From a virus, in the IMG/VR virus record IMGVR_UViG_3300044981_000145, positions 1-47,983 of that record: 47,983 bases of DNA; one strand, 5' to 3'. A model generated the notes under the pieces. That model did not search any database, had not been told where the DNA came from, and saw only the letters and a program-made list of their open reading frames with translations. Made by a program: the position numbers and the translations under genes. Positions 24,255 to 46,280 of this stretch are shown piece after piece. Each line of letters starts with the position of its first letter. The stretch's first letter is position 1.

Positions 24255-24680
24255 ATGGGAAACAGTCTTGATGAGCTTGCGTCGTACTTTCGACCTCAAG
24301 CTCAAGAGCTTCTCGACGATTGCGCTACTATTGGCATTCCCTGCCGCGTTGTGGACACTGGCCGCACTCCCACGGAGCAAGAAGCGAAGCTTGCTCAAGG
24401 CGTGTCTTGGACCTCGCATTCAAAGCATGAGCCTCAGCCTCCGGAGGGAAAGAGCGAAGCGATTGATATCGTGCCCGAGGCTATACTTGAGGAACACAAG
24501 AGCGACTGGGACCCTTCAAACCCGCTCTGGCTTAAAATAGGCGAGATAGGCGAACGCCTCGGCATGGAATGGGGCGGTCGTTGGGTGCACGTCAACGGCG
24601 GAAAAGGCGACCCTTCGCATTTTCAATACGTACCTCAGCCTGCACAGATTTTGACAGACACGGAGCTCTCGACGACATGA
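24255..24680 (+). CDS. M15-family peptidase endolysin
   Basis: 141 residues. Zinc peptidase layout of VanY/L-Ala-D-Glu endopeptidases: 'SWTSHSKHE' with H58, 'SEAIDIVP' with D71, 'GMEWGGRW' and 'GDPSHFQYVP' with H122. It cleaves peptide bonds in peptidoglycan. No signal peptide, so it depends on the holin. The stop overlaps the next start (ATGA). Confidence 0.85.
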   Translation: MGNSLDELASYFRPQAQELLDDCATIGIPCRVVDTGRTPTEQEAKLAQGVSWTSHSKHEPQPPEGKSEAIDIVPEAILEEHKSDWDPSNPLWLKIGEIGERLGMEWGGRWVHVNGGKGDPSHFQYVPQPAQILTDTELSTT

Positions 24681-26275
24681 GTAAGTTTCTCATCTTAAGC
24701 GATGCTGGTGACGGCGTTGGCCTCGCCTTGCGACTCAAACTAGAAGGCCACGACGCCAAGATCAAGATATTCGACCGCGCCCATGACACTCAAGGAAAAG
24801 GTCTCGTCGACTACTCGGACGAGTACCAAATGGGTCAAACCGTGATAGCCGACTGCACAGGCTTCGGCGAGATCATGGACTCGTTTCGAGACGCCGGCAT
24901 TCGAATCTTTGGCGGTGGAGGCTTCGCCGACAAACTGGAGGCTAACCGACAATATGCTGAAGAGGTAATGAGGAAAGCTCGAATAGAAACTCCCAAATCT
25001 GTGAGTGTTAAGTCATGGAGCGACGCTGCGAAGCAAGCCGAAAAGTTTGCAGAGTTATCTGGGAAGGTAGTTCTCAAGCCGGAAGGTGTGCTTAGTGGCG
25101 TCGTTCCGTCATACGTGGCGTCGGACTTCGAGGATGCTTTGTCGATGCTCAAACAGTTCGAAAAGGAGTGTGGCTCCTCGGATGTCGAGCTTACAGTTCA
25201 GGAGTTTATCGAAGGTATCGCTGTATCGACCGAGGGTTGGTTCAACGGCACGGAGTGGGTCGAAGGCTTGTTTAACCACACGATTGAGCGTAAGCAGTTT
25301 CTTGACGGCGATCTAGGACCGTCGGGTGGATGCACCGGAAACGTCGTATGGCCTTGCGACTCTAAGGACCCTTTGGTGAAAGAAACGTTACTAAAGTTAA
25401 CAGAAGCGTTGCGCGAACGCAGCTACGTCGGCGCTATTGATATCAACTGCGTTGTTAACGAGGAGGGGGTTTATGGACTCGAATTCACGCCTCGCTTCGG
25501 TTATGATGCTTTGCCTACGCTACTCCATAGCCTTAGCGGTTTCGATTTTGGTCGGTGTATTGATTCTTTGGCTTGCGGCGAGCTTCCTGATGTTCATTTG
25601 GTTCAGGGTTTTGGGGCAGGAGTGAGGCTTAGCATACCTCCTTGGCCTAACGAAAAGTATCATAACGAGGACTCGATTGCGCTTCGTGGCTTTGACGACG
25701 ATGCTCGTCAGTATTTCTATCCCTACGGCGTCATGTTTGCTGACGGGGAGCTTCAGACCACGCACGGTGTCGGCATACTCGGCGTGATGAATTACGAAGG
25801 GCGGTCTATCGGGCAGGCGTTCGCTTGTGTTTATCATCAGATAAGCAAGCTTAAGATTCCCTCGCTACAGTACCGAACCGACCTCGCTGAGCAGTGTTTG
25901 AAAGACTATCGAGAGCTTCAGTTTGTGCTTGGTGCTGAGCGTGATGGCTGGATAGGCGTCGATCTTGACGGCACGCTCGCTGAATACGGCGGCTGGAGCG
26001 ATGATATCGGAGCGCCGATTCCTAAGATGGTTCAGCGCGTTAAGCGGTGGATTAACGAAGGGAAGGAAGTACGTATCCTGACAGCGCGTGGCTCGGTGGA
26101 TGGCAAGGGTGAGTCGGCGAAGTACGTTCAGCTTATGAAGATTTACGACTGGATCGAAGATAACATCGGTGAGCCTCTTGAGGTTACTTCGAAGAAGGAC
26201 CCCGAGATGCTAAGGCTCTACGATGACAGAGTCAAACAGGTCGAAGCCGGAACTGGAGAGTTGGTAGCGAGCTAA
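24677..26275 (+). CDS. PurD-like ATP-grasp enzyme fused to HAD-like domain
   Basis: 532 residues from ATG 24677. Residues 1-420 resemble phosphoribosylamine-glycine ligase (GARS): N-terminal 'KFLILSDAGDGVGLALRLKL', ATP-grasp region with 'VVLKPEGVLSGVVPSYVASD', 'VQEFIEGIAVSTEGWFNG', 'GPSGGCTGNVVWPCDS' and metal-binding 'GLEFTPRFGYDALPTLL' (compare E-N-x-R-x-G-D-P-E in PurD). From about 430 a HAD-type domain starts with 'WIGVDLDGTLAEYGG' (D-x-D) and 'VRILTARGS'. ATP-grasp enzymes join an acid and an amine; the natural substrate here is unknown because the normal RFGDPE is changed to RFGYDA. Embedded between lysis and tail genes, it may build a small-molecule modification. Confidence 0.75.
   Translation: MSKFLILSDAGDGVGLALRLKLEGHDAKIKIFDRAHDTQGKGLVDYSDEYQMGQTVIADCTGFGEIMDSFRDAGIRIFGGGGFADKLEANRQYAEEVMRKARIETPKSVSVKSWSDAAKQAEKFAELSGKVVLKPEGVLSGVVPSYVASDFEDALSMLKQFEKECGSSDVELTVQEFIEGIAVSTEGWFNGTEWVEGLFNHTIERKQFLDGDLGPSGGCTGNVVWPCDSKDPLVKETLLKLTEALRERSYVGAIDINCVVNEEGVYGLEFTPRFGYDALPTLLHSLSGFDFGRCIDSLACGELPDVHLVQGFGAGVRLSIPPWPNEKYHNEDSIALRGFDDDARQYFYPYGVMFADGELQTTHGVGILGVMNYEGRSIGQAFACVYHQISKLKIPSLQYRTDLAEQCLKDYRELQFVLGAERDGWIGVDLDGTLAEYGGWSDDIGAPIPKMVQRVKRWINEGKEVRILTARGSVDGKGESAKYVQLMKIYDWIEDNIGEPLEVTSKKDPEMLRLYDDRVKQVEAGTGELVAS
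25386..25402. repeat. Dispersed palindrome copy 6
   Basis: CGTTACTAAAGTTAACA, inside the ATP-grasp gene. Confidence 0.4.
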
Positions 26276-37012: not shown

Positions 37013-39199
37013 ATGCCTGAGCCTCAACAAGACGACAAGAAGCATGTCAGGGTCTTCGGGCCGGACAACAAGTACTATCAGTTTCCGGCCGGGACGACGA
37101 AGGATGCTGCTGTCGCTTTCTTCAAGAAGCGTGGGATAACCTCGCCTGAAACAAAGCCCGCTGCGCCTCAGGCAGCGCCTCAGCAAACGGGCGTGCCGGC
37201 TCCGCAAGGGCCTCCGACCATCGGTCAAAAGATGGACGTCGAAGCTGAGCGCGAGCAAGGCATGGTGTCTCGTTATAGACCACGTTGGGACGACCCCGCA
37301 AAGGTTCTACGAGACCCCCCTTGGCTTGGAAGCTTTAGATACCTCGGCGGCGAGCTCTTTGGCGGAGCCAGAGCTGGAGCGACGATAGCCGTAGGCGGAG
37401 CGAAGCTCATCCACGACATTGCGTCGGCGCTCGACCCTATTGAAGGATACAAACGCCCGCTCGGAGATCCACAGCTTCAAGTCGGTAAGGACGTAGTCGA
37501 CATTGGTAAAGGAATCCTCGATATAGGAAAAGCCTCCTGGGATATGCTCAAGCATTTTCCGGAGTCTATGGGCGATCCTGACAAGTTCGGTAACCATATC
37601 ACGAATGTCGCGGCTGTCGTCGATGGCGGGATTAAGCTGAGCAAAGCTGTCGCTGAGGGATTGGCGAAATCGCCTGGGGCAAAGGTCAACCCAACTGAGG
37701 CTGTATCGAAGGCTCACGAAGTTACGTCCGGAACCCCGTCGAGGCTTTTGCATCGTAAAGCGTTCGAAGAAGCTTACGTTCACTCAAAGGGTCTTGACGT
37801 AGCAAAAAAGATCTCGAAAGCAGCTAAAGCTGTTCAAGATGAGGTCAAAGCTCATGCCGAAGGTATCGCGTCGCAGATCGACGGCAAGATACCAACCGGC
37901 GTTATTGACGCCGGTGCTGAGGCCAAAACCATCATGCAGGAGTTTCAGGATGTAGTCAAGACTCCTGACAAGGCTCATCCCGTTTTGGTACAAATGGTTA
38001 AAGACGCTCAGGCGACGGCTCCAAAGATGTGGACGTGGGAAAAAGCTCGTCAGTTTAGAACGTCGGTCGGTCGGGCGTGGGGGCAGGTCAAGGGACCGCA
38101 AGAGGTCGTACTTGCAAAGGTCTATAAAGATTTGACGAATAAGCTTGGAAGCACGGCGAAGCAGTACGGCCTCGAGAACTCGTGGAAGAAGTACAACGAG
38201 CTTGCGTCGAAGATGGACAAAGAGTTTGCTGACACGGTCGATGGAGTTCGCGACGCGCAGTCGGGGCAGGAAGTTGCGCAGCGTCTCACCAAAGACACCG
38301 CGCTAACAAGCGAGCTTTCGCGCAACCTGTCCAAGTATGGACTGAACCACGCCGAGGTTCTCGACTTTGTCAAGACTGCTCAGCGCGTGCTTCGCAATAA
38401 GGGCTTTTGGAATAAAACGCTTTTTCGTCTAGCCTACGGCTCGCCAACCGGCGCTCCGACAATGATCCTGATGAGAATGGCCGGAGCTCCTTGGATGGTT
38501 GGCCTCGGTGCAGGAGCGATCGTTGGATTGGCTTCGTCTTATCTTGTCAATATGGCGAGAGCGCTAAGGCTATCGCCCGAAGTCATTGAGCATATGATGA
38601 AGGACCGCGAGCTGCCGGGTCCGTCGAAGGTCGATAAGGGGGTGTTCCCTGACGAGGGCGCAAAGACTTTGCCAGAAGGCGAGCCTCCAAAGACTCCACC
38701 GCAGCTTCCTGCTCCGTCGGAAGATGTAATAGAGCAAGCACGTCGTACACGAGGTGCTGGAACTAAAGAGCCTATGGAGGATCAGGTTCAAAAAGCTCGT
38801 GATAAGATTGCTACTGATAAAGAGGCAAAGCGTTTAGAGTGGGAAAAGAAGCAACAGGAAGCAAGAGCGGCGAAGGCTCCAGAGGTCAAGAAAGTTGAGC
38901 CCGAACAACATGGCACAGGCAAACTAGCCGACCAAGCCAAGGCTCGTGAGCGTATTACAAAGAATCGAGGAACGGCGAAGCGTACCAAAGAGGCCCAAGC
39001 GCAGGAAGCTCAGGCGCGCGCTCAGGCAACGGGGCTTGATGTCTCGCAGCTTCAGATACCTGAGATGGAGGAGTTCGTTCGTACGAAGAACCCCACGGCG
39101 TACAGCGGGCTTCAGAAGCTTCGCAAGTCTAAGGGTATTACAGACGAGATGTATAGCGAAGCCCTAAAGTACTACATCTTGGAGCATCTAGAAAAATAA
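37013..39199 (+). CDS. Large internal virion/ejection protein 3
   Basis: 728 residues. Start has a small domain typical of phage internal proteins (VRVFGPDNKYYQFPAGTTKD AAVAFF split here: residues 11-36), then long helical regions, a hydrophobic segment near residues 480-515 (GAPWMVGLGAGAIVGLASSY), and a very charged Lys/Glu/Ala coiled coil at 585-690. The hydrophobic segment could insert into the host membrane during ejection. Last large gene of the rightward block. Confidence 0.6.
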   Translation: MPEPQQDDKKHVRVFGPDNKYYQFPAGTTKDAAVAFFKKRGITSPETKPAAPQAAPQQTGVPAPQGPPTIGQKMDVEAEREQGMVSRYRPRWDDPAKVLRDPPWLGSFRYLGGELFGGARAGATIAVGGAKLIHDIASALDPIEGYKRPLGDPQLQVGKDVVDIGKGILDIGKASWDMLKHFPESMGDPDKFGNHITNVAAVVDGGIKLSKAVAEGLAKSPGAKVNPTEAVSKAHEVTSGTPSRLLHRKAFEEAYVHSKGLDVAKKISKAAKAVQDEVKAHAEGIASQIDGKIPTGVIDAGAEAKTIMQEFQDVVKTPDKAHPVLVQMVKDAQATAPKMWTWEKARQFRTSVGRAWGQVKGPQEVVLAKVYKDLTNKLGSTAKQYGLENSWKKYNELASKMDKEFADTVDGVRDAQSGQEVAQRLTKDTALTSELSRNLSKYGLNHAEVLDFVKTAQRVLRNKGFWNKTLFRLAYGSPTGAPTMILMRMAGAPWMVGLGAGAIVGLASSYLVNMARALRLSPEVIEHMMKDRELPGPSKVDKGVFPDEGAKTLPEGEPPKTPPQLPAPSEDVIEQARRTRGAGTKEPMEDQVQKARDKIATDKEAKRLEWEKKQQEARAAKAPEVKKVEPEQHGTGKLADQAKARERITKNRGTAKRTKEAQAQEAQARAQATGLDVSQLQIPEMEEFVRTKNPTAYSGLQKLRKSKGITDEMYSEALKYYILEHLEK

Positions 39200-39797: not shown

Positions 39798-40168
39798 GCT
39801 AGTTTCCCTCCATGTCTGTAGCCTCGTGACATATTGTACTTGAGTTTTCGGTCGATTTCGTATTCAAGGTCAATTCCAAGTAGTTGGGCGTAATGTCCGA
39901 TACGAATAATAACGTCGGCGAACTCGCTTGCAATTCCTTCTGGTTTCATTATTGCAGGGTCGAGGACGTTGATTTCAGAGTCCCCAGAAGGTTTGCCGTC
40001 AGTCCGCTTTGACCACGAAATCGGCTCCTTATTTCGATAAGATTCAAGAGCCTCGCTCGCTTCGCTATGAATCAGAGCAATCATTTCAGGTATGGGAATC
40101 ACTCGCGTGTTCCAGCCGAGGTCGTCAGCTTGTTGTTTGCAGCGTGCTTGAAGCTCTTTAAGTGTCAT
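39794..40168 (-). CDS. MazG-like nucleotide pyrophosphohydrolase
   Basis: 124 residues. 'EMIALIHSEASEALESYRN' and 'EGIASEFADVIIRIGHYAQL' carry the E-x2-E and E-x2-D metal-binding pairs of all-alpha NTP pyrophosphatases; ends with 'KLKYNMSRGYRHGGK', a typical MazG-like tail. It hydrolyses NTPs or dNTPs to monophosphates, which can remove aberrant nucleotides or lower (p)ppGpp-type signals. Coupled to the GroES-like gene. Confidence 0.8.
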   Translation of the reverse strand: MTLKELQARCKQQADDLGWNTRVIPIPEMIALIHSEASEALESYRNKEPISWSKRTDGKPSGDSEINVLDPAIMKPEGIASEFADVIIRIGHYAQLLGIDLEYEIDRKLKYNMSRGYRHGGKLA

Positions 40169-40467
40169 GCTCCCTCGCTTTCTATCTCAGGTGAATCGGG
40201 GTTTAGGATAGCCAGGACTTCGCTATAGCCGAGGCAGCGAAGCAGAGGCGTATCCTCGAACTTAAGTAGGTAGCCGGCGAATTGGCTAAACAGCACCTTG
40301 TCGTCAATAGCGATGTCCTTGATGTTGTCGGCAATCGCGACGACTACTCCTTTAGTAGGCTTTCGCTTCGCGGTTTCAGGAACGACGATACGACCGCTGT
40401 ATTTGAACTCATCGATTTGAACGATGAGGTGGTCGTTTAGAACGCGCTTAAAGGGCCATTTTGTCAT
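40165..40467 (-). CDS. GroES-like co-chaperonin
   Basis: 100 residues. 'KRVLNDHLIVQIDEFKYSGR' then 'IVVPETAKRKPTKGVVVAIAD' is the Cpn10 start including the mobile-loop position, followed by 'DDKVLFSQFAGYLLKFEDTP' and 'GYSEVLAIL'. The usual GGI in the mobile loop is SGRI. It would cap the host GroEL, as T4 gp31 does, to help fold phage proteins such as the capsid protein. No GroEL is seen here. Starts in ATGA overlap with the helicase gene. Confidence 0.8.
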   Translation of the reverse strand: MTKWPFKRVLNDHLIVQIDEFKYSGRIVVPETAKRKPTKGVVVAIADNIKDIAIDDKVLFSQFAGYLLKFEDTPLLRCLGYSEVLAILNPDSPEIESEGA

Positions 40468-41687
40468 GGTTTTGTAGAGTCCTTCCAGTAATAAAGTGTT
40501 TTGTTTCCCACCGTTTTTTCTCCAATCATCCCGCTTTCGCGGAAAGTCGCGATTATAACATCAAGCTCACTCGACGTGAAGTTACGCCAGTTAAACTGAA
40601 GAATGTCGCCTCGGCTTGCAAAGCCTCGTGTTTCGAGGAAGCGTATGACCTTGTCGCTTGCTGAGGCCAAATCTGACTCGCCTACGGCGCGAAAGACAAT
40701 CTTTAAGTCCTTAGCGACATCCTCGACCTTGTCGATAGCCATTTGAAGGTCAAGCTCGTTTATCACCAAGCTGTCGGAGCGTGAGATAGATATAATTTCA
40801 GCAAGCTTACCGGCGTTCGCCCACTTTGACGTCTTGTAAACAGCGGACGCTTCGTCGTCAAAGTCGTTTGGATCGCAGCTGTCGTGGTATATCTTCAGCA
40901 AGCGAAGCGCGCCGGGAGTAAGCGTAAAGCGTCCGCGAATCAACGACATATAACGAAGGTCTTCGACTAGGTCGTCTTTGTCAGGGAGCGGACGCTTCAA
41001 CGGGTCCGGTTTGCTGTCTTTAGTAGTAGCCAGAACGAAATTAACGCGCCGAGTAAAACCACCTCCAACAGCGTCAGCAGGAACAGATTTAACAAGCCAA
41101 TTTTGGGCACTTCCACCAAGTAAAGACACAATAGGCTCGTTAATATTCCACTCACCCTTGCCACGAGTGCCATATTGGTATATCCCTTCTTTGGAGTCCC
41201 ACAAATCGCTCAAACACGTAATCGTAAACTGAGACGCCGTTATGAATACGCTCAGCTCCGTAGATACGAGCAAGGCCGCCGCTTCGTTTCCGAGCTTCAT
41301 GAGTTGCTGCCCCGCCACAGCCGACGCCCCATTAGGACTAACCGACATCTTAGGAAAGCCTTTAGAAAGCTTTTCGAGTACGAACTCCATCGTTACCCTG
41401 TCCGACAAGATATTCGTCGTACCTGCTTTCTTCAAAAGCGAGATAGCAGGATTCATCGCAACGCCCTTCCCTATACCGGGCCGTCCGACAAGGACGGTGT
41501 AGATATTTGGGAAAAGCTTCCACTCTTCGACGATTCGCTGGATACCACCGATCCAGACATTTCGTTTGAGGGTGCTTGCGATACAGGTAGCACCGGTCCA
41601 GAAGTGATACCTAGACGGGCTGTCCGTTGTGGTGCTAAAGAGTCGTACGTACTCGTCAAGCCAGGGAGATTTAAGCTTCCTTGGCAC
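40464..41687 (-). CDS. DUF3987-like replicative helicase/ATPase
   Basis: 407 residues, GTG at 41687 with AAGGGG 8 bases upstream. N-terminal helical part 'DEYVRLFSTTTDSPSRYHFW' and 'LFPNIYTVLVGRPGIGKG' (Walker A GRPGIGKG at 68-75), 'TELSVFITASQFTITCLSDL' as Walker B-like region, 'VNFVLATTKDS' later, and a C-terminal winged-helix-like end (ASRGDILQFNWRNFTSSELD). This fits DUF3987 ATPases found in replication modules. It overlaps the polymerase gene by 217 bases in the -1 frame, and the GTG directly follows the A AAA AAG heptamer. Confidence 0.65.
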   Translation of the reverse strand: MPRKLKSPWLDEYVRLFSTTTDSPSRYHFWTGATCIASTLKRNVWIGGIQRIVEEWKLFPNIYTVLVGRPGIGKGVAMNPAISLLKKAGTTNILSDRVTMEFVLEKLSKGFPKMSVSPNGASAVAGQQLMKLGNEAAALLVSTELSVFITASQFTITCLSDLWDSKEGIYQYGTRGKGEWNINEPIVSLLGGSAQNWLVKSVPADAVGGGFTRRVNFVLATTKDSKPDPLKRPLPDKDDLVEDLRYMSLIRGRFTLTPGALRLLKIYHDSCDPNDFDDEASAVYKTSKWANAGKLAEIISISRSDSLVINELDLQMAIDKVEDVAKDLKIVFRAVGESDLASASDKVIRFLETRGFASRGDILQFNWRNFTSSELDVIIATFRESGMIGEKTVGNKTLYYWKDSTKP

Positions 41688-44176
41688 TTTTTTAGCCCCT
41701 TGATGCTGTAGCCGATTCGTAGGTCTATTGGTACTTTCACTTCAAAGCCGTTTGGAAACTTCATGACGCGGTCGTACGCTCGTTCGAGCAGCTTCACGCC
41801 GTCGAGGACGTGTTCAAGGTCGTCAAGAACTTCCAACAAGATTGAATCGTGCCCATCAGCCAAGACAACCCCAGGATGAACGGTTTGGCAGCAAAGAATC
41901 GCCAAACCGTTGTTGTCACCAATGGTAGACTGAGGTATGTAGGCGTAGCCCTCGCGGTATACCTTCGCGTTGTCACCGTAGGGACGAAGTCCGTGGAAGG
42001 TCCGCACTCGACCCAGAGGCGTCCTGAGCTCTCTTTTAGTTCGTAGTTCATGTTCAACATATTTGTGAAACACTCCTCGGATGTTGGGTTCTACTTGATG
42101 AAACTTGTCCAAGATCGCTTTGCAGAACGGTATGGGTGTCGGCTTGCCCGCCGCGGCCAGCTGAGCGGCCATCGTATTCTCGCGCATGTCGTAATTGCCG
42201 GCGTGCCGAACCTTCTTGCCGAGGAAGTACTCTAAACACTCTTTGTTGTTCGTCTGCTCAAGAGGAAGTCCGAAGATTTGACTGGCGAGCCTTGCGTGAC
42301 GCGATATTCCAGACGTGATAGAATCTTGCAATTCCTGAATGCCGCGTCCATCTCCCGAAACATCGGCAATAATTCCCTGTACAATCCATTCATCTGCCGA
42401 TGCTTGATCGCAAGCAATAAATATATGATTGGGTCGAGCAACGAACACTCCTTGGAGACGCTCGCCAAGGTCGCTGTGCTTCGTTTGGTTTTGGCCGTTC
42501 GAACCGAGGCCAAGGAAGTTCTTTCTAGATGCTCGACGACCAGTGACAGTTCCCGCGACGCTGTAACAGGAATATAGCACCCCAGAGCCAAGTCGGGCGT
42601 CGACATTAGTTCCGAGTACTTTGTTAAGCTCGCGTACCCGGAGTGTGTCTTTAAGAACAGGGTTGCCTGTAGCGGCAAAGGCTTCTTGGAGCGACTCTTC
42701 TCCGGTCGACTCTTTGCCCGTCTTGCGATCCGACTTAAGCTTGATTTTGAGTTCATTTTTCAATACGTCCTTTAGCTGTGGGACTGACCCGATGTTAAGA
42801 ATTCCTTTGCTATCGATTTTGAGCTCTCTAGCCAGATTATCCGCCATTTTCGTCGAATAGACAACAGGACGTCCTCCCAGCGTTTTAGAGATGGATACGC
42901 ACCGATCGCCCAGTTCGCGTATAATATCCTTACGAAGTTCTCCGAGACTCGCAGCGTCGGTCTGTATCCCTCTTTTGTCGATAGAATGAAAGCAGCGAGC
43001 GAGTGGCAGTTCGTAGTCGGTGTAAAAGCGTCGTAGATTTGGATTGGCATTGAATTCCTCTTCTTGCTCTTCAAACACTTCGAGGGTACAGCAGGCGTCG
43101 AGACAGTTGTATCGCTTTAGCTTGGTCATGCCGTCGCGAAGTTGCCAGCCCCTTCCGTCGTCTTTGTAGAAGGGTTGCCGAGTATACTGCATGACCTGGA
43201 AGTCGAGCTTGTGACTTAGCTCCGGGTGTAGGACATGATGACGTACGAGACAATCGTCAAGCTTGTCGATACCGCTACAAAAGCCAAGAGCTTCCATCCA
43301 ATTCGCATCAAAAGTGCTCCAATTCTGGCCAACGAGTCTCTTTTCTCTAAGGATTCTATCCATAAGTCGCCACAGCTCTCGCTGATTAGATACATCCCCG
43401 TCAAATAGAGAAATGCTGACAGCAGATTTGCGAGAGAAAGAAAAAGAGCAACAGATGGGAACGCGTCGAGCAAGTAGCTCGATATCTGCTGAGGTAGGAC
43501 CGTCATGGTTAAGGCACTCCTTTAGGTACTCCTGAGCTTCGCCGTAGCTTGGGTCGGCGATTAGCTCTCGTTCTGGGAGGGGTTGGTGTTTTCCGTTAGC
43601 GATGAAATAGTCGTATTCTTCTCTGAGACGACGAAAGATGAATACTGCAACGTCACGATCGCTCCATTCTCGCAGAACATACGCAGGGTGAAACTGTCCA
43701 AGAATGTAGTGAGGCCAACGTAGTTGTTCGCTTCCAAGAAGGCTTCCTCGCCACTTGCTAATTTTAGTCTCTTTATCCCTGGGATCGATGGTGAATCCAC
43801 AAAGGATGCTGAGTGCAGTACCTCCGAGAGAGCCGATAAAAGCTGGCTTATAGATTTCGAGTTCTTCAAAGAACTGTTCAATGCAAAGCTGTCTTGGGAT
43901 TCCGGTTTCTTCAAATCTATCAATATCATTGTCAGGAGGCCTCACTTTGTAAGGATTCACGAAACAACAAAGCCCTATCGGTATCCCCGCTTCGACAAGC
44001 ATTCTGTCGAGCTCTTTTCCAGAGCTACCTACAAACGGTACTCCAGCTTGATCTTCATCGGCTCCGGGACTTTCTCCGACAATCCAAATAGGAGCGCGAG
44101 GGTCTCCGCGAAAGCCGACATAGCGACGACCCAACGACGCACAAAGAGCTTTTAGCGCAACGGTCTTAGGACCCAT
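41471..44176 (-). CDS. Uracil-DNA glycosylase-like / family A DNA polymerase fusion
   Basis: 901 residues. About 1-190: family 4-like UDG with 'IVGESPGADEDQAGVPFVGS' and 'YILGQFHPAYVLR' (H163-P164); the usual KCRPP is KVRPP, so one iron-sulfur Cys is missing. About 220-400: 3'-5' exonuclease with Exo I D231-x-E233, Exo II N285/D290, Exo III Y356/D360. About 400-830: polymerase with motif A at D590 (ACDQASADEW), motif B 'KKVRHAGNY' (654-662, His where Lys is usual) and motif C H776-D777. The conserved domain ends near 830; the 71 residues after it are Ser-rich, unlike any polymerase end, and overlap the helicase gene. Confidence 0.88.
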   Translation of the reverse strand: MGPKTVALKALCASLGRRYVGFRGDPRAPIWIVGESPGADEDQAGVPFVGSSGKELDRMLVEAGIPIGLCCFVNPYKVRPPDNDIDRFEETGIPRQLCIEQFFEELEIYKPAFIGSLGGTALSILCGFTIDPRDKETKISKWRGSLLGSEQLRWPHYILGQFHPAYVLREWSDRDVAVFIFRRLREEYDYFIANGKHQPLPERELIADPSYGEAQEYLKECLNHDGPTSADIELLARRVPICCSFSFSRKSAVSISLFDGDVSNQRELWRLMDRILREKRLVGQNWSTFDANWMEALGFCSGIDKLDDCLVRHHVLHPELSHKLDFQVMQYTRQPFYKDDGRGWQLRDGMTKLKRYNCLDACCTLEVFEEQEEEFNANPNLRRFYTDYELPLARCFHSIDKRGIQTDAASLGELRKDIIRELGDRCVSISKTLGGRPVVYSTKMADNLARELKIDSKGILNIGSVPQLKDVLKNELKIKLKSDRKTGKESTGEESLQEAFAATGNPVLKDTLRVRELNKVLGTNVDARLGSGVLYSCYSVAGTVTGRRASRKNFLGLGSNGQNQTKHSDLGERLQGVFVARPNHIFIACDQASADEWIVQGIIADVSGDGRGIQELQDSITSGISRHARLASQIFGLPLEQTNNKECLEYFLGKKVRHAGNYDMRENTMAAQLAAAGKPTPIPFCKAILDKFHQVEPNIRGVFHKYVEHELRTKRELRTPLGRVRTFHGLRPYGDNAKVYREGYAYIPQSTIGDNNGLAILCCQTVHPGVVLADGHDSILLEVLDDLEHVLDGVKLLERAYDRVMKFPNGFEVKVPIDLRIGYSIKGLKKCQGSLNLPGLTSTYDSLAPQRTARLGITSGPVLPVSQAPSNEMSGSVVSSESSKSGSFSQISTPSLSDGPV
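41687..41693 (-). promoter_or_regulatory. A AAA AAG slippery heptamer at polymerase/helicase junction
   Basis: In the polymerase frame codons 828-830 read CTA AAA AAG, giving the -1 slippery sequence A AAA AAG in phase. A -1 slip continues as GTG CCA AGG, exactly the helicase frame, making a polymerase-helicase fusion. AAGGGG just upstream can act as ribosome site for GTG or as a stimulator. Whether slippage occurs is unknown. Confidence 0.5.
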
Positions 44177-44600: not shown

Positions 44601-44991
44601 GTTGCTCCTGTCTTTCTCGCTCGATGATGAGCTTTTCGATAGCGTCCTCGTAGTACGCCCACTTGACGCCGAGGCACGCAGCCAAGATTCGCTCCACCCC
44701 GGTAGCGAGGCAATGCTGCCTCTGGTACGGGGCGTTGGGATTGTCGCCGGGCTCTTCGTCGCGCTGTACGAAGGATTTATCGAACTTGTCGACTGATTCC
44801 TCCGCGACTTCATCATGCATACAGAGGAAAGCTTCGACAAGCTCGTGAACGGCAACGCAGAGCTCGTAGCGCCATGAGCCAAGCTCGCTGACGTGGATTC
44901 GAACAGTCCCGGTGGCTTTGTCGGTAAACCAATCTCCGATAGTATTATACCTCTGCAAACGATGAGGCTGAGTTAGGATTGATATTTTCAT
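44575..44991 (-). CDS. HELVE-motif putative metallohydrolase
   Basis: 138 residues, ATG overlapping the methyltransferase stop (CTATGA). 'CVAVHELVEAFLCMH' places two His and two Glu on one helix, as in zincin-like enzymes, with another candidate ligand in 'QRQHCLATGVERI'. Proteins with this helix occur in other phage genomes; activity is unproven. C-terminal helix is charged. Confidence 0.6.
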   Translation of the reverse strand: MKISILTQPHRLQRYNTIGDWFTDKATGTVRIHVSELGSWRYELCVAVHELVEAFLCMHDEVAEESVDKFDKSFVQRDEEPGDNPNAPYQRQHCLATGVERILAACLGVKWAYYEDAIEKLIIERERQEQHGESLSNA

Positions 44992-46280
44992 AGAGCTCCT
45001 AGTCTTGCCTTAATAATACTACAAGCAGCTACGTCTTTTTCGAACAATACCACTCTCCGATTCTGTCTAAGAGCTGCCACACCAGTCGTTCCGGAACCCG
45101 CACAGAAATCAACCACCGTCGACCCAGGAGGAGACATGTCCAATATGAGCTTTTCGATGAGCGCGACGGGTTTCTGGGCTTGGTAGTATTTCTTTTCTTG
45201 AGTGCCGGTTGTGATGACATTCTGTACCTCGATGACGTCGCGTTGCGACGGGCGCATCAGTTTTGGCTCGCCTTTTCTTGCGAGTAGAAGTGGCTCGTAG
45301 CTTCGGCCATATCTTGTGTACGGAGAGGTATTAATGACTGTATTTTTGACCCAAATAATGGGTGTGAGGTCGACGACAAATCCATTACTTTGTAACGCGG
45401 CAACGAGGTCGGGATATAGCTCAAATCCAAAAAACCAGACCGAAAAACTGTTCGCTCGAAGAACTCTCCATGCTCCATGAGCCAGCTGATCGAAAAGATT
45501 TCTAGTGTAGGAAAGCCCATCAGCGAATGGACTCGCGATAAGTTGTTTGCTGTTCGGTCCCATTCCCTGAGTATCCTCGCCATAGGGGGGGTCGGTAATG
45601 ACAAGGTCAACGCTTGCCGGTTCGATATTGTTAACATTGTTAACGAAATCTCCTTCGTAGAGTGTCCACTTTTGCTCCGTCTTAGGCGGGTTCTTTGCCT
45701 GTGTCTGAATTGCCCCCGCGACAGCTATAGCGAGGCTTGCTTGTCGTCGCGCGGCTTCCTTGGTCTCGGCTTTGGCGAGCATTGGGACGGCTTCGATAAG
45801 CTCTGCGAGTTCAATATCCTTTGAAGTCTGCGCACCCGACTCGCCAAGAAGAGCTGCAAGTTTGTTAATTCCGAAACCACCAGACGTGATTCCCAGCGAC
45901 TCAGAGCGTGAGGGTTGACCTGAGCGAGCAACTCCGTGTATCTGCTGCATAATTTGGAGCAATCGACGCTTCGCTGTGACGGCTTCTTGCCACGAAAGCT
46001 CTTTGCGCTTAACATTCTCCTCTATCTCCATTGCCTTGACTTTAAGCTCGTCGACTTCGTCGTTAAAGACGAAGAGTTTGCCGTGTGGTAGCGTCGTCAC
46101 GCCTATTTTGCGAAGCGCGCGCAGTCGGCGTTCGCCGGCTATCAGGGCGTAATCGCGTGTCAGCACGATTGGTTGGATGAGGCCAACGGCGCGTATAGAG
46201 TCGCAGAGCTCGTCTAGATTTCCGAAGTCCTTACGAACACGATCGCCGACGACAACTTGGTCGATACTCAACTCATCCAT
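44988..46280 (-). CDS. ParB-like domain / DNA methyltransferase fusion
   Basis: 430 residues. Residues 1-100 are a ParB/Srx-type domain: 'DELCDSIRAVGLIQPIVLTR' and 'ALIAGERRLRALRKIG' (GERR at 49-52). The middle contains a helical DNA-binding-like section. From about 205 comes an N6-adenine/N4-cytosine methyltransferase: DPPY at 230-233 and 'VVDFCAGSGTTGVAALRQ' near 395, in the order typical of beta-class enzymes. It may methylate phage DNA against host restriction. The gene itself holds palindrome copy 9. The 146 bases upstream of it contain no supportable gene. Confidence 0.85.
   Translation of the reverse strand: MDELSIDQVVVGDRVRKDFGNLDELCDSIRAVGLIQPIVLTRDYALIAGERRLRALRKIGVTTLPHGKLFVFNDEVDELKVKAMEIEENVKRKELSWQEAVTAKRRLLQIMQQIHGVARSGQPSRSESLGITSGGFGINKLAALLGESGAQTSKDIELAELIEAVPMLAKAETKEAARRQASLAIAVAGAIQTQAKNPPKTEQKWTLYEGDFVNNVNNIEPASVDLVITDPPYGEDTQGMGPNSKQLIASPFADGLSYTRNLFDQLAHGAWRVLRANSFSVWFFGFELYPDLVAALQSNGFVVDLTPIIWVKNTVINTSPYTRYGRSYEPLLLARKGEPKLMRPSQRDVIEVQNVITTGTQEKKYYQAQKPVALIEKLILDMSPPGSTVVDFCAGSGTTGVAALRQNRRVVLFEKDVAACSIIKARLGAL
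45629..45645. repeat. Dispersed palindrome copy 9
   Basis: TGTTAACATTGTTAACG, inside the ParB-methyltransferase gene. Confidence 0.5.

Follow-up and report, generated by a model that had tools for sequence, protein, structure and literature searches.

The polymerase and replication gene junction

The window analysed here is the whole of IMG/VR virus record IMGVR_UViG_3300044981_000145, 47,983 bases from an uncultivated phage. Its minus strand carries a DNA polymerase gene and, overlapping the end of that gene, the gene of a P-loop replication protein (Table 1). The polymerase ORF has Pfam matches to UDG (residues 24-175) and DNA_pol_A (residues 456-822). The second ORF carries a P-loop motif and is matched strongly by PHROG 14296, 'DNA primase' (E 3e-28); its match to DUF3987 is weak and below the cut-off. 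A first-pass annotation had termed it a helicase; the P-loop assignment stands, the helicase identity is not proved. Searched by profile against solved structures, the second protein drew spurious repeat-protein matches only; its AlphaFold model was poor (mean pLDDT 54) and was set aside, and a blastn comparison of the region with phage records returned no match. Other features seen in the window are entered in Table 1.

Table 1. Features of the window, and site codons (polymerase frame) and gene splits in related contigs
Feature	Position	Strand	Remarks
Polymerase ORF (UDG + family A DNA polymerase)	44176->41471	minus	901 aa, 71-residue tail included
Second ORF, P-loop replication protein	41687->40464	minus	407 aa, GTG start
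A AAA AAG heptamer, polymerase frame	41693-41687	minus	codons CTA AAA AAG, residues 828-830
Dual-coding overlap, 217 nt	41471..41687	minus	polymerase tail over N-terminal codons of second ORF
AGGGG, Shine-Dalgarno-like	41696..41700	minus	8 nt upstream of GTG, 2 nt upstream of heptamer
Weak stem, 4+3 bp	41660..41685	minus	begins 1 nt past heptamer
Site codons, window		minus	CTA AAA AAG TGC
Site codons, L003 and L004			CTC AAG AAG TGC
Site codons, L005			CTC AAA AAA TGC
Site codons, L021			TTA AAG AAA TGC
Site codons, L022			TTG AAG AAG TGT
Site codons, L023			CTG AAA AAG TGT
Site codons, L031			CTC AAA ACG TGC
Site codons, L032			CCC GCA CAG TGT
Further in-phase A AAA AAG	37804-37810	plus	inside ORF 37013-39199, a long open frame
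GroES-like Cpn10 gene	40165-40467	minus	directly after the P-loop replication gene; similar ORFs there in L003, L004, L005
N6/N4 DNA methylase	44988-46280	minus	fused ParB N-terminal domain
ATP-grasp domain ORF	24569-26275	plus	resembles phosphoribosylglycinamide synthetase
tRNA match (Rfam)	3165-3238	minus	one of two
tRNA match (Rfam)	2863-2919	minus	second of two; barely above cut-off
Polymerase gene split, L031	5080-5560		between exonuclease and polymerase parts; ~100-aa ORF similar to that in L032 (by eye)
Polymerase gene split, L032	5090-5960		between the same parts; ~100-aa ORF as in L031, and HNH-endonuclease-like ORF (both by eye)

The geometry of the junction is as had been described from the letters alone. 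The heptamer is of the X XXY YYZ type, is in phase with the polymerase and lies just past the DNA_pol_A match, at the end of the conserved polymerase domain and about where the polymerases of phages Mel-JY34, ctMlz233 and vir526 end. Its final G also opens the GTG start codon, and the -1 frame enters the second ORF without an extra codon. The two ORFs are co-directional, one base out of frame, and overlap by more than 6 nt (217 nt in the window); without a shift the polymerase gains a tail rich in Ser (18 residues). The printed frames also bear out that with one A fewer in the run a stop follows five codons on, and that with one A more the two ORFs are fused. What does this arrangement represent? 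Three options had been put forward: a true overlap in which the second gene starts at GTG, a programmed -1 frameshift joining the two proteins, or a one-base homopolymer error.

On chance grounds the heptamer is not special. A second in-phase copy stands elsewhere in the window, at 37804 (Table 1). Given a conserved Leu-Lys-Lys, a GTG start and the codon usage of this genome, it is expected about one time in twenty (~5%). Across the whole window AAAAAAG is rarer than expected, with three occurrences against 10.5.

Start codon and heptamer among the relatives

Scans of viral contigs yielded L003, L004, L005, L021, L022, L023, L024, L031, L032 and L033. One scan of genome contigs found no relative, and another contig scan gave bacterial proteins, which matched mainly the uracil-DNA glycosylase part. 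Eight contigs (L003, L004, L005, L021, L022, L023, L031 and L032) share the overlap register of the window, with polymerases 45-81% identical to its own. Split polymerase genes, as in L031 and L032 (Table 1), were also seen in L012, L013, L014 and L033.

A slippery site that is real can be told from one that is coincidental when start codon and heptamer are scored each on its own among relatives. The start is present in all nine sequences, the window and its eight relatives: a GTG, or an ATG in L005 and L021, stands at the homologous base and opens the second ORF, its first base being the third base of the codon that precedes TGY. The polymerase-frame codons around it vary freely. The heptamer is found in one of the nine, the window itself, where a published rule for motif conservation calls for presence in over 90% of cluster members (PMC4066793). 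Among the same-register relatives the overlap is 106-217 nt long.

These counts bear directly on the headline of the first-pass annotation, a programmed -1 frameshift at A AAA AAG that would produce a functional polymerase-P-loop fusion in a set ratio. The heptamer is among the most shift-prone in E. coli (PMC4066793; PMC5009743), it joins both ORFs exactly, and it has a Shine-Dalgarno-like AGGGG upstream and a small stem downstream. It is missing, however, from all eight same-register relatives, in which the overlap and the start are kept, and no fused gene was seen in any relative examined, whether among the L-series contigs or in Mel-JY34, ctMlz233 and vir526. The flanking signals give no clear support. 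Tested stimulatory Shine-Dalgarno sequences lie 6-17 nt before the heptamer (PMC4066793), against 2 nt here, although the counting of intervals may differ. The downstream fold is unremarkable: the 102-nt region has z = -1.07 when folded without pseudoknots, which is not unusually stable, and the stem, starting 1 nt past the heptamer, is not convincing as a stimulator. Since the part that a frameshift needs is not kept and the part that it does not need, the start codon, is kept, a selected frameshift is very unlikely.

The spacing of AGGGG to the GTG is right for initiation. Its predicted pairing (-6.8 kcal/mol) is of median strength, ranking 22 among 45 genes of the window; in the relatives the corresponding pairing is stronger in L003 and L004 (-11.3) and weak in L021 (-0.9) and L031 (-3.8).

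Could a one-base error in the A-run have made a false overlap, or masked a real fusion? Six A residues stand in a row at the site, and the contig comes from an IMG/VR virus record. Yet L003, L004 and L022 have AAG AAG at the site, with no homopolymer, and show the same frame relation and an overlap of the same or similar length. As the frame relation holds without an A-run and thus does not depend on it, sequencing error is excluded, and we give this option practically no weight.

A leak at the A-run is a different proposal, and one compatible with an ordinary overlap: in the window phage only, slippage could yield a small, unselected amount of fusion alongside normal initiation. A AAA AAG is present here, and in E. 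coli most such motifs, even without stimulators, shift at 2 to 10 times a background of ~0.05% (PMC4066793). The heptamer is not conserved, however; such a leak is conceivable, if somewhat doubtful.

Outside the nine, the two genes are arranged in other ways. L024 has separate ORFs with a 32-nt overlap in the other register, and in L033 the polymerase stop is followed by a gap of about 10 nt before the second gene. In Mel-JY34, ctMlz233 and vir526, which are isolate and assembled phages, the genes are adjacent and separate. Relatives whose polymerase gene has its own stop ahead of the second gene, named beforehand as a finding that would speak against a frameshift, thus do exist (L033 and the isolate phages). 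In a tree of the second protein the window clusters with L003 and L004 (100/100), and L005, L021 and L022 join this cluster next (96/98). Deeper branching, that of L024 included, is not supported; an older arrangement and a later loss of the overlap in L024 both fit.

Of the three options, the relatives support the first, an overlap that is real and has a GTG start, with the start codon kept in nine of nine and separate genes in the outgroups. The locus is very probably a normal, conserved, long same-strand overlap, out of frame and with internal initiation, that arose by loss of the polymerase stop. That the second protein is initiated at the GTG and that the tail is translated are inferences, as is the order in which the arrangement came about. 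An ancestral polymerase would have lost its stop beside the downstream start and been extended into the second gene. Ribosomes would now read the polymerase through the A-run into the Ser-rich tail and terminate at 41471, and other ribosomes would start the second protein independently at the GTG, with AGGGG upstream of it.

The polymerase tail

Compared with the outgroups, polymerases of the clade of the window are extended by this tail, which runs for 34 to 71 residues past the start site. Ser makes up 18 of its 71 residues (25%) in the window, compared with 5.7% in the polymerase body. High as this is, it falls inside the range that the second gene gives when read out of frame (3 to 20 per 71 codons).

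Is the tail frame under constraint? Polymerase-frame stops are absent from the first 48 codons in seven sequences and from the first 34 in all nine. In four divergent relatives, synonymous resampling, which moves identical codons together and is not a full phylogenetic model, predicted about 8.9 stops in the first 47-48 codons where none occurs, and each of the 4000 trials contained at least one. With the same resampling the third frame has roughly as many stops as expected. One of six control stretches was also stop-free (P 0.0045), and stop avoidance is therefore not wholly specific to the tail. Similarity of the tail frame among relatives is also above the resampled expectation, with a mean z of 2.5 against 0.4-1.7 in the six controls. 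Together, stop avoidance and similarity are suggestive of constraint on the tail frame. Because the polymerase frame is open beyond chance, the tail is probably made, and either tolerated or used.

Its amino acids are only loosely kept, as changes that are synonymous in the second gene, and alter the tail, are as common inside the overlap as outside: between the window and L003, they affect 18 of 30 fourfold sites in the overlap and 68 of 132 outside. Simple purifying selection on the tail, as judged from close relatives, was considered and dropped, for synonymous-site divergence is not lower in the overlap when the window is compared with L003 and L004. Divergence at second-gene-synonymous sites is lower in the overlap for L003 against L004 and for L031 against L032.

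A more far-reaching proposal is that the tail is a functional C-terminal extension that arose de novo in this phage clade, overprinted on the start of a neighbouring replication gene and kept open by selection. This is a tentative suggestion, and the less probable course. If true, the tail could, for example, link the polymerase to replication partners in the manner of a disordered tether.

Comparison with known systems

For this site in the window, a tempting frameshift claim is closed off. The parts of the literature that were searched contain no report of a programmed frameshift between a phage DNA polymerase and a neighbouring gene. The E. coli dnaX -1 frameshift cassette shares A AAA AAG and an upstream Shine-Dalgarno-like sequence with the window. 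In contrast to dnaX, the window heptamer is not conserved, the Shine-Dalgarno-like sequence is spaced from a start codon as for initiation and there is no strong stem; moreover, the -1 frame holds a complete gene, which has a conserved start of its own.

Long unidirectional phase-1 overlaps are a known kind in prokaryotes and phages (PMC3887535, PMC2542354). The present overlap is like them in its co-directional genes, one base out of frame and overlapping by more than 6 nt, with the downstream start inside the upstream gene. It differs in being long (106-217 nt), in being kept over wide divergence and in the avoidance of stops in the tail frame. In a modest way it illustrates how a polymerase may gain a tail from the coding sequence of its neighbour. 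The polymerase/DUF3987-primase pair of Mel-JY34, ctMlz233 and vir526 agrees with the window in its two protein families, in their order and in their shared strand, but there the genes do not overlap and the polymerase, without a tail, ends at about the LKK site.
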